IMG/VR virus record: IMGVR_UViG_3300030117_007306
Coordinates: 1 to 56,912 of that record
Reading direction: 5' to 3' (one strand)
From: a virus
Length of the DNA: 56,912 nt
This document shows, piece after piece, positions 20,227 to 47,615 of the stretch. Position numbers and translations under genes: made by a program. Within the stretch, counting starts at the first letter, position 1. Every line of letters begins with the position of its first letter. Below the pieces are notes generated by a model that saw only the letters and a program-made list of their open reading frames with translations, was not told where the DNA came from and searched no databases.

Positions 20227-21498
20227 CTATTTATATTTCCTGTCTACTTCAAAGAAGTAATCGAACAGGTTTTCGGGAGCCTGTAATCCTCCGATAGCTG
20301 TGTAAACAGCTAACCCCTGCTTTGCTCCTGTATAAATGCCGCGATGGACAGTAGAGCCTCCTCCCATCATACGGCTAAGCTGTTCAAAGCCGTGTTCTAA
20401 ACTAGACTGAGGGATATTGTCAAGAGAATTTTTATCTCCGATAATGACGCAAGCTGCGACATCACCAGTAGAAGCATCAACTCCCGCTAAGATATTTTTC
20501 CTAAGATTATCTCTGACGGCATAAGAGATTCCCGTCTCTGTAGTGTCTTTGATCGGCGTAGCGCCAAACATAATTATTCCAGAGGAAAAGATTGTATCTA
20601 AGTCCGCTTTATCGAAAGTTGTATAGGCTGATTCCTTTGCGGATATCTTATTGAACAAGTGGAAGATAGAACAGATACTATTATTAGCCGTACTCCAAAA
20701 CTGATTGACACTTAGTTTAGGATAAAGTTGTTTTATTTTTTCGTTATCCAAGATAATCAGAGGAGATAGCACTCCTGCTTTTTGAGCATCAATTACTTTG
20801 CTGATAGTCTTTTTCGAATTGTCTTGGACTTTAATTCCCTCCGCTCTTGTCGGTAACGCTAAAACACATCCAACTTTTGCATCAGTATCTTTAGTCTCCT
20901 TTCCTAGAGACTGATTTAGATCGTGACATATATCAATAACTCGAGCTGCTCCTCCAGCACCAGTCCCCCCGCCAGCGCCAGCGCAAACTAAAACTCTTTC
21001 GTAGCTTGTCCCAAAAGTCCTTTTTAGAAAGTCAAGGATGTCTTCATATCTAGTACGAAATACCTCGTCTGCCGCATCTGGATTCTTTCCAGCGCCTCCG
21101 TCACCAATTAAAAGTTTGTTCTCTTCTGGTATGTTTATTAAAGAGAGGTCTTGTTTTGCTGTGTTGATAACACCAACTCTACGATACCCCAAATTCCAAA
21201 AAGACTCAGCTAGTCTCGAACCACCTTGGCCTACTCCTACAATAGCGAAGTTAAAAGCGGCGTCTTCAAAAATGTCTTTAACGCTATCCTCAATAGGCTC
21301 ATCATCTGGCAAGGGTATATCTGGTAAATCAATACCTAAATCATCCACGCCTAAAGCTTCTACTGGAGCAGGGACTTCCGGCTCTAATGGCGCAGAGTCT
21401 GGAGCTTCTCCCGCCGTCAAAGAAGCAGGCGGTTCCAACCCCGGTAAAGGAGTTTCTTTTTCTTTTGGATAATAATCTGAAATATTTGTATCACTCAT
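20227..21498 (-). CDS. Tubulin/FtsZ-superfamily GTPase
   Basis: 423 residues. After a 78-residue Pro/acid-rich, probably disordered N-terminus come GVGQGGSRLAESFW (88-101), the GTP signature AGAGGGTGAGG (173-183), and a T7-loop-like FDKADLDTIF whose acids would trigger GTP hydrolysis in the next subunit. This is closer to FtsZ/CetZ in motif spelling than to PhuZ. Phage tubulins position replicating DNA or phage nuclei; this one is encoded directly upstream of helicase and primase, which fits a role in moving or organising replication. The function is inference. Confidence 0.85.
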   Translation of the reverse strand: MSDTNISDYYPKEKETPLPGLEPPASLTAGEAPDSAPLEPEVPAPVEALGVDDLGIDLPDIPLPDDEPIEDSVKDIFEDAAFNFAIVGVGQGGSRLAESFWNLGYRRVGVINTAKQDLSLINIPEENKLLIGDGGAGKNPDAADEVFRTRYEDILDFLKRTFGTSYERVLVCAGAGGGTGAGGAARVIDICHDLNQSLGKETKDTDAKVGCVLALPTRAEGIKVQDNSKKTISKVIDAQKAGVLSPLIILDNEKIKQLYPKLSVNQFWSTANNSICSIFHLFNKISAKESAYTTFDKADLDTIFSSGIIMFGATPIKDTTETGISYAVRDNLRKNILAGVDASTGDVAACVIIGDKNSLDNIPQSSLEHGFEQLSRMMGGGSTVHRGIYTGAKQGLAVYTAIGGLQAPENLFDYFFEVDRKYK

Positions 21499-40209: not shown

Positions 40210-40619
40210 GATGTTAAAACTTTCTCAAAATCATCAAAAGAGTATTTCTCTTCTCCAGAAAAACTCAGAACGTACTTGTGATGTTTCGTAAAATAAGTTG
40301 ATATTGGGTATATGATATCTATTACGTCCTCTAAAGTATCGTAAAAATCGCCGTTTTGTATTACATCTACTCTTAATCCTAGATGGTCATAAGTGTACAA
40401 ATGAAGCGCTAGAAAATATATGTCTTTATCTTTATAGCTTTCGTTGAAGTAAGGGATGCGGCTGAATAACTTTATGAAATAATAAAATTCAGTATCCGCA
40501 CTACTAGTGAAGTGGTGCAGATACGTTGTATTTTTGAAATTTAAATGAGCGTCTACCCCTAAGGTCGCAAAGATTGGATAGCAGTCGCTTTTATATTTTT
40601 TTAAAATATCACCCGTCAA
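40182..40619 (-). CDS. Unknown protein
   Basis: 145 residues, aromatic-rich (YLHHFTSSADTEFYYFIKLF, IYFLALHLYTYDHLGLRVD) and mostly helical by appearance; no transmembrane segment. No family recognised. It lies between the kinase-like gene and the sigma factor and overlaps both (11 and 28 nt), so expression is coupled to them. Confidence 0.5.
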   Translation of the reverse strand: MTGDILKKYKSDCYPIFATLGVDAHLNFKNTTYLHHFTSSADTEFYYFIKLFSRIPYFNESYKDKDIYFLALHLYTYDHLGLRVDVIQNGDFYDTLEDVIDIIYPISTYFTKHHKYVLSFSGEEKYSFDDFEKVLTSWKKQILKN

Positions 40620-41208
40620 TGTAGTTTTTTACAAGCCATTTAAAAAATTTATCTGAATATTTTTTTTGTTTTGAAACATCTGTAGGCCAACAAAAGGAGT
40701 AGTTCGCTTTATTTTTTAAAATTTTATCATTTCGTTTTTCGTGCTCATTGTTCGGTAATATGTAAATTCTTTCCCCATTTTCTTCAAAAAATCTAGTAAT
40801 ATGAACCACGATCCCATTATTTGACTGTATCCAGTTTAACTCGTCGCATTCGTATTCGCAGTAACGAACGTCTGTTATTATATTGACTTTGTCGCAAAAA
40901 ATTAAATTTTTTATTCCATCAATCCAATATTGCCCTTGGGTTTTGTCTCTCATTATGGCTCCATGAGCTATTAAAAGCGGCCTTATTAGGTTTTTTTCTT
41001 CTCTGGAGCAGTTTGTTGGATCTATATCATAAAGTTTTTTGGATACAGCGGCGACCTCCTGTTTGAGTTTTGTCGCAAAAGATAAAAAATTAACTTTTCG
41101 GCCGCTGGTCTCGAAGTGTTTTCCTATTATTTCAGCAAACGTATCCTTTCCACTTCCAGCTACGCCTGCGATTCCAATCGTATTTATCTTTATTTCGTTT
41201 ATATTCAA
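40609..41208 (-). CDS. Deoxynucleoside-monophosphate-kinase-like P-loop protein
   Basis: 199 residues from a TTG start at 41208, chosen because the P-loop GIAGVAGSGKDTFAEII begins at residue 12 and no ATG precedes it. The middle has IITDVRYCEYECDEL, like the NMP-binding core of T4 gp1-type dNMP kinases. It would phosphorylate dNMPs as part of dNTP supply. First gene leftward from the strand switch. Confidence 0.65.
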   Translation of the reverse strand: MNINEIKINTIGIAGVAGSGKDTFAEIIGKHFETSGRKVNFLSFATKLKQEVAAVSKKLYDIDPTNCSREEKNLIRPLLIAHGAIMRDKTQGQYWIDGIKNLIFCDKVNIITDVRYCEYECDELNWIQSNNGIVVHITRFFEENGERIYILPNNEHEKRNDKILKNKANYSFCWPTDVSKQKKYSDKFFKWLVKNYIDG

Positions 41209-41235
41209 AACGTTAAAATTTATGTTATCGTATCG

Positions 41236-41279
41236 TTTATTATTATCGTTAACATAACGTTAAAATATATAATAATAAA
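41236..41279. repeat. AT-rich inverted repeat at the strand switch
   Basis: Perfect 11-bp arms TTTATTATTAT (41236..41246) and ATAATAATAAA (41269..41279) around a centre with CGTTAAC and ATAACG. A direct repeat AACGTTAAAAT occurs at about 41209 and 41257. It sits where leftward and rightward transcription diverge; candidate origin, operator or divergent promoter region. A TATAAT at 41268..41273 may drive the RNA to the right, although no good -35 is seen. Confidence 0.5.
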
Positions 41280-41634
41280 CTTCCCTTAAAAAGTCGACAT
41301 GTCGAAAGACATGGAGACTTTTCCCGCTTAGCGCCTGTTCAAAAAAAATGAACTCGTTCTAAGCGACCGGATCTCTTTACTTCCCTTTTAAAACTCCCAC
41401 AGAACTAACTTTTTTGGGTGAGCAGGAGGCCTAGCGCCCGTATGTTGTTCTGTCTGCCTCTCCGTTATCCGTTGTAATCAGGTTCTTCGGGTTTTAATCC
41501 TTCTCCCTCTATCCGCGATAACTTTCCACGGTTGTAAAGTCTCCTACAAACAGAGCCGTGCTTTTTGAGATCGGGGGTGAGCGGCAATAGAGCTCACCTA
41601 TCTGCCCCGAAGCCTACGAGGCTTCTTTTATTTT
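41280..41634 (+). ncRNA. Structured noncoding RNA of about 350 nt, family unknown
   Basis: No reading frame fits this stretch, it is more GC-rich than its surroundings, and it folds into a series of good stems on the + strand: AAAGTC...GACTTT enclosing ATGTC-GAAA-GACAT with a GNRA loop (about 41290-41320); CGCTTAG...CTAAGCG with inner GTTCA/TGAAC (41329-41369); ACAGAAC...GTTCTGT (41399-41453); CACGG-TTGTA...TACAA...CCGTG (41528-41560); TCGGGG-GTGAGC...GCTCAC...CCCCGA (41571-41610); then a terminator hairpin. It does not show the tmRNA, RNase P, 6S or tRNA signatures I know. Confidence 0.65.
41609..41634 (+). terminator. Intrinsic terminator of the noncoding RNA
   Basis: GAAGCC-TACGA-GGCTTC followed by TTTTATTTT. 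Lies 31 nt before the dUTPase promoter. Confidence 0.85.
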
Positions 41635-41664
41635 GTCAAGTATTTTTTTTTATGCAAAAAAAAA

Positions 41665-41694
41665 TTGACATTTGATACAAAAAGCTGCGACAAT
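41665..41694 (+). promoter_or_regulatory. Promoter of dUTPase, short leader
   Basis: TTGACA (41665..41670), 18-nt spacer, GACAAT (41689..41694), 7 nt to the ATG at 41702. The spacer has ACAAAAAG but no proper CMAGAA box. Confidence 0.5.
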
Positions 41695-41701
41695 TTTTGC
41701 G

Positions 41702-42169
41702 ATGGAGATCAAATATCAAAAAGTATCTGACTTTGCAACTTGCCCCAGCAGAAACACATCTACAGACGCGGGATATGACTTGTATTCAACGGAATGTCAC
41801 CGAATAGAGCCAATGCAAAGGGTTCTTGTTTCTACCGGAATTTGTATTGAGATACCGGAAGGGTACTATGGAAGGGTTGCACCTAGAAGCGGGTTAGCAG
41901 TCAAGAAAGGTCTGGATGTTATGGCTGGTGTAATAGATTCTGGCTACAGAGGAGAGATAAAAGTCCTTTTGGTTAACTTGAATCCACCGGCTACAAACAG
42001 AAACGCTTATGAAAGTTTTTTTGGAAGTTCTGGTAAAATTGACATAAAAGAAGGAGATAGGGTAGCTCAAATCATTATTGAAAAATGTTATTCTGCAGAA
42101 TGGAAAGAAATAGAAGAACTTTCAAGCTCTGAAAGAGATGAAGGAGGTTTTGGAAGTAGCGGTATTTGA
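41702..42169 (+). CDS. dut: dUTPase (trimeric Dut family)
   Basis: 155 residues from the ATG at 41702; an in-frame TTG further upstream lies in the promoter. All five dUTPase motifs are present in order: DAGYDLYS (I), PRSGLA (II), GVIDSGYRGEI with the catalytic Asp and Tyr (III), GDRVAQIII (IV), RDEGGFGSSG (V, the C-terminal arm). It hydrolyses dUTP to dUMP, preventing uracil incorporation and feeding dTMP synthesis. Confidence 0.95.
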   Translation: MEIKYQKVSDFATCPSRNTSTDAGYDLYSTECHRIEPMQRVLVSTGICIEIPEGYYGRVAPRSGLAVKKGLDVMAGVIDSGYRGEIKVLLVNLNPPATNRNAYESFFGSSGKIDIKEGDRVAQIIIEKCYSAEWKEIEELSSSERDEGGFGSSGI

Positions 42170-44162: not shown

Positions 44163-46589
44163 ATGGATATTAAGGTTAAGAAAAGAAGCGGCAAATTAGA
44201 AAGTTTTGATGTTGAAAAAATCAACAAGTGCGCATATAGAGCGTGTTTAGGCATAGGGGGAAATAATGTTTCGGCTAGTGAAATTATCCTAGACGCGCAA
44301 CTTCAGCTCTACGATAAGATAACAACAAAAGAAATCGACGACGCTCTAATTTTATCGGCTAGGGCCAAGATAGAAAAAGAGCCAAACTACAGCAAGGTCG
44401 CCGCAGCCTTAGCTGCAAACGCTCTCTACAAAGAAGTATTTCGCGAAAGCGTAGACTCTGATACTTTTGAGCTTCAGTACCGCAAATCTTTTGTCCAAGG
44501 TGTCAAGAAGCTGGTAAAAAATGAGATAGCCAACCCAGAGCTGTTAAATTTTGATTTAAAAAAACTGTCAGAAGCTATTGATCCTGAAAGAGACAAGAAA
44601 TTTAAATACCTTGGCTTACAAATTTTAATTGATAGATACTTTATTCGTGTAAATAATAAAATAGTCGAATCGCCGCAAGCTTTCTGGATGCGCGTGGCGA
44701 TGGGCTTAGCTTTAAATGAAGACAACAAAGAAGACAGAGCTATTGAGTTCTATAACTTATTTAGCAATTTCCTTTACACTCCTTCCACCCCTACTCTCTT
44801 TAATAGTGGGACTACTCACTCACAACTAAGCTCATGCTACTTAAACACATTTGATGATAGTATTGACGGAATCTTCGAAGGGGTCTGGCAAGAAGCACGT
44901 AAGAGTAAATACGCTGGAGGCTTGGGCTTTGATGTTACTAATTTTAGGTCTTCTGGCGCTTTCATCAAAGGCACAAACGGGATTTCAGGAGGCCTTGTAC
45001 CGTGGCTTAAAATCTTCAACGACACACTCGTCGCGGTAAATCAAGGCGGTAAAAGGCCCGGCGCAGGATGCGCTTATTTGGAGCCTTGGCATCTCGACTT
45101 TGAGGACTTTCTAAACCTTCGCCGCAATACTGGCGACGAAAGACTTCGCTGCCATGACATGAATACCGCTGCGTGGATTCCAGATTTATTCATGCAAAAG
45201 GTTCAAAATGATGAGGACTGGTATATGTTTTGCCCGTCCGAGTCTAGAGATTTGCATGAAGCCTTTGGCGATTGCTTCACGGCCGTCTACGAGCAGATGA
45301 TAGACAAGGCGGAAGCTGGAGAGCTTAAAAACTTTCGTAAGATAAAAGCTAAAGAACTTTGGAAGAAGATGTTGAAAGTTTTATTTGAGACATCTCATCC
45401 TTGGATTACTTTCAAAGACCCTTCTAATATTCGTTATAGCAATCAGCACGAAGGTACTGTTCATTCCAGCAATCTTTGTACAGAAATTCTGTTACATACA
45501 AAACCATCCGTTTATCAACACGGAGAAAAAACTATAGTTGGCGAAACTGCTGTTTGCAATCTCGGTAGCGTAAACTTAAAGAATCATCTTACTGAAAACG
45601 ATGGTAAATTTACGCTGAATCGTGATCTACTCGCCAGTACAATTAAAACTGCTGTTCGTCTATTAGATAATGTTGTTGATTTAAATTTCTACCCAACTAA
45701 AGAAGCTGCTAATTCAAATTTACAGCATCGCCCAGTTGGACTAGGAATGATGGCGACTCACGACGTGCTTCAATTAGTTGATATCCAGTACGACTCTGAC
45801 GAAGCTGTTAAATACATTGACGAACTCACAGAGTTCTTCTCTTATAACGCTATACTATCATCTAGCGAACTAGCTCAAGAGAGAGGTAGCTATAAAACTT
45901 TCTCAGGCTCACTTTGGGATAAAGGCCAATTACCAATAGACACATATAATAAATTACTAGATTTTAGAAAAAAATCTGGAAGCAAGCCCGTGGGGGGTAA
46001 ATTGGATTGGTCAGAAGTAAGAGAAAGTATTTCAAAATATGGAATCCGAAATAGCAACATTATGGCAATTGCTCCTACTGCTACTATTGGGTATATCAAT
46101 GGTGTTGAGCAGAGCATTGAGCCGAACTTCTCAGTCCTCTTCGTCTACGAAAACAAAAGTGGAAACTTCTACATCACAAACGAGCAGTTCGTCGAAGACA
46201 TGAAGAAGGAGGGCTTGTGGAGCCCGAGATTCGCAGAAGCTGTTAAAGAAGCGGATGGAGACGTTACTCTTTTAGATATACCAGAGAAATATAAAGAGAA
46301 GTATAAGACTGCCTTTGATCGTGATATGTTCAAGCTGATTCAATGCAATGCCGCTCGTCAAAAATGGATAGATCAAGGTATTTCTTTTAATCTATATAAT
46401 AAGAACACAAGCCTTAAATATCTAAATGATATCTATATGGCTGCGTGGGAAGCTGGACTGAAGACGACTTACTATTTAAGAAACCGTGGCGCTTCTAAAG
46501 TTGAGAAATCAACCAAGAAAGAGTATACGGAAGAAGAACAGATAGCTTGCTCTATCGCTAACCCCGAAGCTTGCGAAGCCTGTCAATAA
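44163..46589 (+). CDS. nrdA: Ribonucleoside-diphosphate reductase alpha subunit (class I)
   Basis: 808 residues. N-terminal ATP cone (VKKRSGKLESFDVEKINKC), Cys225 in QLSSCYLN, active-site SNLCTEI with Cys439 and Glu441, Cys465 in ETAVCNLGS, Tyr pair in TTYYLRNRG, and the C-terminal redox pair CEACQ. These fall at or within a few residues of E. coli NrdA numbering. It reduces ribonucleotides to deoxyribonucleotides with the radical provided by NrdB, encoded 9 nt downstream. A single ATP cone implies dATP feedback control. Confidence 0.97.
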   Translation: MDIKVKKRSGKLESFDVEKINKCAYRACLGIGGNNVSASEIILDAQLQLYDKITTKEIDDALILSARAKIEKEPNYSKVAAALAANALYKEVFRESVDSDTFELQYRKSFVQGVKKLVKNEIANPELLNFDLKKLSEAIDPERDKKFKYLGLQILIDRYFIRVNNKIVESPQAFWMRVAMGLALNEDNKEDRAIEFYNLFSNFLYTPSTPTLFNSGTTHSQLSSCYLNTFDDSIDGIFEGVWQEARKSKYAGGLGFDVTNFRSSGAFIKGTNGISGGLVPWLKIFNDTLVAVNQGGKRPGAGCAYLEPWHLDFEDFLNLRRNTGDERLRCHDMNTAAWIPDLFMQKVQNDEDWYMFCPSESRDLHEAFGDCFTAVYEQMIDKAEAGELKNFRKIKAKELWKKMLKVLFETSHPWITFKDPSNIRYSNQHEGTVHSSNLCTEILLHTKPSVYQHGEKTIVGETAVCNLGSVNLKNHLTENDGKFTLNRDLLASTIKTAVRLLDNVVDLNFYPTKEAANSNLQHRPVGLGMMATHDVLQLVDIQYDSDEAVKYIDELTEFFSYNAILSSSELAQERGSYKTFSGSLWDKGQLPIDTYNKLLDFRKKSGSKPVGGKLDWSEVRESISKYGIRNSNIMAIAPTATIGYINGVEQSIEPNFSVLFVYENKSGNFYITNEQFVEDMKKEGLWSPRFAEAVKEADGDVTLLDIPEKYKEKYKTAFDRDMFKLIQCNAARQKWIDQGISFNLYNKNTSLKYLNDIYMAAWEAGLKTTYYLRNRGASKVEKSTKKEYTEEEQIACSIANPEACEACQ

Positions 46590-46598
46590 TTTAAGAAA

Positions 46599-47615
46599 AT
46601 GAACGACTCAAAAACTGGAAATATATTAGGAAAAGACGTTGCGGGTGTAAATTGTATTTTGCCGCACAAGCATAAGACTGCATGGGATTTATTCCTCAAA
46701 GGTTGTGCTAATAATTGGATGCCAACGGAAATATCCATGGCAGACGATATTAAGCAATGGAAAAATGGAGACATAACAGATGATGAAAAACTTTTGGTCA
46801 AACGTTCACTCGGCTTCTTTGCCGGTAGTGAATCTCTTGTTGGTAATAATCTACTATTGTCTGGTTTTAGGTACATCACTGACGCTGAGTGTCGCCAGTA
46901 TATTCTTCGGCAAGCGTTCGAAGAAAGCCTTCACAACTTAACTATCGTTTACGTTTGTGATTCTTTAGACCTTAAAATAGACGAGGTATATCAAGCATAT
47001 TTAAATATCCCATCTATCAAGGCTAAAGATGATTTCTTAATGAGTATTACTACCGATTTGAGCAGGCCAGATTTCAATCCACATACTCAAGAAGGTAAAA
47101 AAGAGATTTTAAGAAACTTCATTACTTACTGGATTGTTTGCGAAGGTATATTTTTCTTTAGTGGATTTGCTATGCTGCTGGCTCTCGGTCGGCAGAATAA
47201 AATGCAAGGTGTCGCTGATCAAATCAAATATACTCTGCGCGATGAAAGTTCGCATATTCAATTTGGAACTTATGTAATCAATCAGATTATTGAACAGAAT
47301 CCAAAAATTTGGACTAAAGCTTTTCAGCAGGAGATAACTGAACATATACAGAAAGCCGTACAGCTAGAAATAGCTTACGCGAGAGATGTGCTGCCTAGAG
47401 GTATTCTTGGCCTTAATGCGGAAATGTTTGTGGATTATATGCATTATATTGGCAACCGCAGACTTGAGGGAATTGGCCTTGAATACAGGTTTGAGTCAGA
47501 CAAAAACCCCTTCCCATGGCTCGGTGAGGTAGTTGACGTCCAAGCTATGGGTAACTTTTTTGAACGTCGAGTAAGAGAATATCAACAATCGGGTTCCCTT
47601 GAGGATGACTTTTGA
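46599..47615 (+). CDS. nrdB: Ribonucleotide reductase beta subunit, class Ic-like (no radical Tyr)
   Basis: 338 residues. Metal ligands Glu78, Glu109, His112, Glu182, Glu216 and His219 are each exactly 11 less than the ligands I recall for Chlamydia trachomatis NrdB (89, 120, 123, 193, 227, 230). The first ligand is Glu and the site of the radical Tyr is Ile116 (Phe127 in Chlamydia), with Tyr118, Trp40 and Tyr211 also kept at the same offset. This points to a tyrosyl-radical-free, Mn/Fe-type cofactor. C-terminus with Tyr328 carries the radical path to NrdA. Confidence 0.95.
   Translation: MNDSKTGNILGKDVAGVNCILPHKHKTAWDLFLKGCANNWMPTEISMADDIKQWKNGDITDDEKLLVKRSLGFFAGSESLVGNNLLLSGFRYITDAECRQYILRQAFEESLHNLTIVYVCDSLDLKIDEVYQAYLNIPSIKAKDDFLMSITTDLSRPDFNPHTQEGKKEILRNFITYWIVCEGIFFFSGFAMLLALGRQNKMQGVADQIKYTLRDESSHIQFGTYVINQIIEQNPKIWTKAFQQEITEHIQKAVQLEIAYARDVLPRGILGLNAEMFVDYMHYIGNRRLEGIGLEYRFESDKNPFPWLGEVVDVQAMGNFFERRVREYQQSGSLEDDF

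Follow-up and report, generated by a model that had tools for sequence, protein, structure and literature searches.

The gene-free strand switch of the phage genome analysed here very probably encodes a structured RNA of about 325 nt on its minus strand (class I; Table 1). By sequence comparison, class I is a conserved structured RNA outside the known families, and it comprises 11 distinct sequences, one in the window (the whole 56,912-nt stretch of IMG/VR record IMGVR_UViG_3300030117_007306) and ten in IMG/VR relatives. It is placed on the minus strand because of a conserved promoter, the gene order in one relative (L175) and the G-U changes seen in its helices.

Locus, relatives and database searches

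The first-pass annotation had described positions 41280-41634 as a gene-free stretch at a strand switch that holds an orphan structured RNA, and had suggested an Rfam scan and a search for covarying homologues. The segment indeed lacks any open reading frame (ORF) of 60 aa or more and sits at the strand switch, flanked by a minus-strand dNMP kinase gene and a plus-strand dUTPase gene. In cmscan it yielded no Rfam family at the gathering threshold and no credible weak match at permissive thresholds; covarying homologues were found, so that the orphan RNA now has comparative support. Neither tRNA nor tmRNA was detected in the window by ARAGORN or Rfam, and Rfam models of RNase P, 6S, SRP and group I/II intron RNAs as well as of the known riboswitch aptamer classes were unmatched. 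The covariance models of GOLLD, ROOL and OLE also gave no match, either at the gathering threshold in the window or in permissive scans of the window, L007, L008, L219 and L209. DNA similarity searches of cultured phages returned nothing beyond AT-rich chance matches for class I and no match for the class II and III RNAs introduced below; among these phages, the kinase has distant homologues only, in Klebsiella jumbo phages. DNA pattern searches of bacterial and archaeal genomes gave no match. Class I has no Rfam 15 family and is undescribed in the open-access literature searched, which is an incomplete set.

Relatives were retrieved from IMG/VR with NrdA and dUTPase as baits, whereas L171 and L172 were found by a DNA pattern and L175 by a kinase profile. 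The order kinase, RNA, dUTPase is common to L002/L003, L004, L005, L007, L008, L010, L014 and L083. L002 and the window are 88% identical across the RNA, with diverged flanks. In all 11 class I loci the kinase gene lies 39-66 nt downstream of the RNA on the same strand, and no clear terminator was found between the two. An AT-rich inverted repeat that the earlier annotation had noted beside the RNA is present in the window but is not kept in L002.

Some observations concern the surrounding genes. An additional ORF, deoxycytidylate deaminase-like by eye, lies between the RNA and the dUTPase gene in L004, L007, L010 and L014, where it adjoins the RNA promoter; it is missing from the other relatives. 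NrdA and NrdB of the window (44163-47615) are 98-99% identical to those of L002, compared with 55-83% for neighbouring genes, which suggests that the nrd genes were recently exchanged. A minus-strand gene at 20227-21498 encodes a Tubulin/FtsZ-like GTPase (Pfam PF00091, E=1e-12) and recalls phage tubulins.

Table 1. Features of the strand switch and of the three RNA classes (window coordinates unless a contig is named)
Feature	Position	Strand	Remarks
dNMP kinase gene	40609..41208	-	PHROG 139, E=1e-14; directly downstream of class I RNA
AT-rich inverted repeat AACGTTA...TAACGTT	41209-41268		between class I RNA and kinase start
Structured RNA (class I), ~325 nt	41279..41604	-	L002/window conservation against diverged flanks; profile and covariance model matches
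Purine motif copy 2, AAGGGAAGU	41279..41287	-	3' limit of class I conservation
P1 hairpin GAAAAGUC...GACUUUUU	41288..41323	-	GNRA hairpin of the first-pass annotation, opposite strand
P2 hairpin CGCUUAG/CUAAGCG	41325..41365	-	
P3 3' strand GAGAUCCGG	41367..41375	-	helix comparison, covariance model match
Purine motif copy 1, AAGGGAAGU	41379..41387	-	in core
P4 helix ACAGAAC/GUUCUGU	41399..41453	-	ACGGAUC/GAUCCGU in L002, two compensatory changes
P5 and proposed pseudoknot PK2	41416..41460	-	PK2: GAGGC 41456-41460 with GCCUC 41426-41430
P6 hairpin/domain GUUAUC...GAUAAC	41464..41522	-	variable; short covarying hairpin in relatives
P7 hairpin CACGG...CCGUG	41527..41560	-	conserved GAGACUU loop
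P3 5' strand CCGAUCUC	41567..41574	-	pairs with 41367-41375, one bulged base
5' terminal hairpin GGUGAGC/GCUCACC	41576..41598	-	H-type pseudoknot instead in eight relatives
-10 box TAGGCT	41611..41616	-	17 nt from -35 box; probable transcription start near 41604
-35 box TTGACA of RNA promoter	41634..41639	-	TTGAC[AT] in 11/11 loci
Divergent promoter-like site of dUTPase, TTGACA-N18-GACAAT	41665..41694	+	
dUTPase gene	41703-42169	+	
Class II RNA, ~350-480 nt	L219:2573-2993, L034:983-1421, L194:2564-3000 and 25 others		start UAAGCUCGCUGAGAG in most
Class III RNA, ~460 nt	L209:2548-3015, L221, L247, L028, L027, L019, L039, L207		starts AGUUCUUUGU

Fold, covariation and strand of the class I RNA

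All class I members share a multibranch core with highly conserved loops and possess two copies of a purine motif. Their 5' end forms an H-type pseudoknot in eight of the 11 sequences and a simple hairpin in the window, L002 and L175; the pseudoknot marks a subgroup and does not define the class. Both versions covary: the pseudoknot stems contain 10 doubly changed pairs among the relatives, and the hairpin of the window is replaced by GGCGAGC/GCUCGCC in L002 and by GGAGAGC/GCUCUCC in L175. Both strands of P3 carry changes in L175 and in L005/L083. For the proposed pseudoknot PK2, GUAG/CUAC in the eight relatives stands against GAGGC/GCCUC in the window and L002; since each version is invariant within its group, this replacement provides a weak test of the pairing.

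The structure was drawn by hand on alignment A4, which holds the eight relatives, and contains 61 pairs. Standard pairs fill 96.5% of the cells, a value biased upward because the structure was drawn from the same eight sequences; 22 of the 61 pairs, corresponding to 47 cells, are doubly changed. None of 500 shuffles reached 22 such pairs, and with the partners displaced by 1-3 columns there were 1-3. We regard these compensatory changes as stronger sequence evidence than the percentage paired. A covariance model that represents the P3 domain and was trained on the minus-strand sequence of the eight relatives, with the window left out, matches the window at 41574-41367 (-) with E=1.9e-10, L175 with 7e-12 and L002 with 1e-8, and found nothing else convincing in 1.36 Mb. 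This match is an independent test of the class I structure; having been trained on minus-strand sequence, however, the model adds no separate evidence on the strand.

Nor can folding alone show the strand, since segment 41280-41634 folds better than 100 of 100 dinucleotide shuffles on both the plus (z -3.35) and the minus strand (z -2.49); the z-scores leave the strand unsettled. The first-pass annotation had placed the RNA on the plus strand, with a GNRA-capped hairpin and an intrinsic terminator, and a standalone plus-strand RNA with its own terminator would agree with the lower plus-strand z-score of the window, with the GNRA loop and tandem G-A pairs of P1 and with the terminator-like hairpin. 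Neither of the two last-named landmarks is conserved. On the plus strand, the GNRA loop of the window reads GAAA; L175 has GAUA instead, and the eight relatives have nothing equivalent. The terminator-like hairpin (41609-41625) exists in the window but is missing from L002 and L175; it is a window-specific palindrome that overlaps the -10 box and spacer of the minus-strand promoter.

This promoter is of the sigma70 type, TTGAC[AT]-N17-TAnnnn, and is present in 11 of 11 loci with an invariable spacing of 17 nt and an unconserved spacer sequence; the -10 box TAGGCT is kept in L002, reads TAGTTT in L175 and conforms to TAnnnn elsewhere. The 5' helix begins 6-8 nt past the -10 box, or 12 nt in the window group, and we infer from this arrangement that +1 is the first base of the 5' terminal helix or lies a few bases earlier. 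In L175, the RNA is flanked by a small gene and the kinase gene, both on the strand equivalent to minus. G-U half-changes favour minus over plus by 19 to 2 in the hand-drawn helices and by 19 to 5 once the outermost P3 pair is added; in the raw alignment the ratio is 16 to 7, which is not significant alone (p=0.09), and two of the seven plus-favouring changes are register shifts in P2. Read on the minus strand, the 5' pseudoknot has one loop of 4 nt and an A-rich one of about 12 nt, lengths that fit the canonical H-type geometry only on this strand, and the unpaired positions are purine-rich. Promoter conservation, the L175 gene order and the G-U changes all point to minus, so that the plus-strand assignment is most likely wrong and an RNA of that polarity is improbable.

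The motif AAGGGAAGU occurs on the minus strand twice within the class I RNA and nowhere else in the 56.9 kb window. Most relatives carry AGGGAAAAG twice, and L171 carries AGGAAAAAG twice. Because the copies change in concert between phages, one shared partner is suggested. Inspection by eye revealed no convincing intramolecular complement of the motif.

Class II and class III RNAs in distant phages

More distant phages harbour two further gene-free RNA classes in or near the kinase neighbourhood, class II with 28 distinct loci and class III with 11. Neither matches Rfam, profile searches link them neither to class I nor to each other, and the class I covariance model finds no member of either, for which reason homology between the classes is not claimed. 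By eye, both end in a near-duplicated purine motif, CUU[C]AAAGAAAA in class II and AAGGAUAAGCAGUC in class III, which carries this sequence or a variant twice. The idea of a CsrA-type GGA motif was abandoned, as GGA is missing from some of the class III repeat variants (L039, L207). L253 and L254, initially candidate RNA loci, were rejected as chance coding matches.

The kinase gene directly follows class II in 7 of 28 loci; in the remaining 21 it is at least 0.7 kb away or the context is another, a count in which some contigs end too early to show the kinase. Such infrequent adjacency argues that class II RNAs stand alone, and that a role as kinase leader does not account for all RNAs of the neighbourhood. 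About two thirds of the class II RNAs are preceded, at a distance of about 30-100 nt, by a gene for a small protein that we call gpX (L255:4519-4917, alignment A8). It is predicted to adopt a winged helix followed by two C-terminal helices (AlphaFold pLDDT 92), has no Pfam or PHROG family match and is, on this model, a possible RNA or DNA partner near class II. As an obligatory partner of class I it was rejected, being absent from the window and present in L175 only among the class I neighbourhoods examined.

Tentatively, the neighbourhood of the kinase and winged-helix genes in a broad group of uncultured phages could be a dedicated slot for at least three large structured RNA families of common design, which would represent a new functional type of phage RNA. 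With the same reserve, we suggest that this design might combine a promoter of its own and an ornate core with a purine motif that is nearly duplicated at the 3' end, both copies changing in concert.

Possible function and comparison with known systems

We propose that, in an uncultured marine phage lineage, a minus-strand RNA of about 325 nt, encoded upstream of the kinase gene, would be transcribed from a sigma70-like promoter of its own. Transcription would start with the 5' terminal helix or pseudoknot or slightly ahead of it; this element would cap the 5' end, and the RNA would fold into the multibranch core. The two copies of the purine motif would share one binding partner, either a protein dimer or another molecule of the RNA itself. 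The RNA would act mainly in its own right, and the transcript would read on into the kinase gene. This proposal as a whole has, in our estimate, an even chance of being correct; the nature of the shared partner and the significance of the motif repeat are conjecture. A standalone binding role, taken by itself, falls somewhat short of an even chance, and what inclines us towards it is the loose association of class II RNAs with the kinase.

Nearly as likely, because class I always precedes the kinase gene without a clear terminator, is a cis-acting 5' leader, either a riboswitch or an autoregulatory protein site, that would control the dNMP kinase operon. We consider this main rival a substantial minority possibility. 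The constant short distance to the kinase in 11 of 11 class I loci and the nucleotide-metabolism surroundings in the window (dUTPase, NrdAB) speak for it. Against it stand the usual separation of class II from the kinase and a promoter-like site that separates the RNA from the kinase in L194, and neither an expression platform nor sequestration of a Shine-Dalgarno site was seen; the two classes, however, may not share a function. Of the regulatory or packaging role suggested initially, the regulatory part is thus possible in the form of a kinase leader, while packaging found no support. A transcript tied to replication, as origin or primer RNA, would suit the minimum that the cumulative GC skew of the window reaches at 40-42 kb and the purine-rich, R-loop-prone motifs beside an AT-rich stretch, but divergent transcription explains the skew switch equally well and the position of class II RNAs varies, which makes this reading very unlikely. 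Even less probable is a ribozyme of a new kind, or an RNA that processes itself: its size, its pseudoknots and the strong conservation of its loops would be in keeping with one, yet no cleavage site is evident and the Rfam ribozyme models were unmatched even at permissive thresholds.

Like riboswitch-type leaders, and irrespective of the preferred standalone role, class I is a conserved structure in leader position on a metabolic operon; it differs from them in having no known aptamer and no expression platform, and in that the RNAs of the distant neighbourhoods are mostly off the kinase. The leader of T4 gene 32 mRNA, which serves nucleic-acid metabolism, contains a 5' pseudoknot followed by repeated unpaired sequence. 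Class I resembles it in its 5' terminal pseudoknot, the repeated unpaired sequence that follows and the nucleotide-metabolism mRNA, whereas its fold is far larger, a kinase lies downstream and no autoregulator was found. GOLLD and ROOL are large ornate phage and prophage RNAs for which no function or protein partner is known (PMC12286853). Class I shares with them a phage origin, large size, pseudoknots and a conserved structure, but at 325 nt is shorter than their about 600-800 nt, does not match their models and lies upstream of a dNMP kinase in a window without tRNA, whereas GOLLD and ROOL occur near tRNA islands (PMC12286853). Class I is therefore akin to them in kind, not in membership.

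Large conserved phage RNAs such as GOLLD and ROOL are few and unexplained. Three further families from one neighbourhood, each built around a repeat that resembles a binding site, would offer a comparative handle on what such RNAs do, and the modest size of the class I fold makes it accessible to direct probing and cryo-EM.
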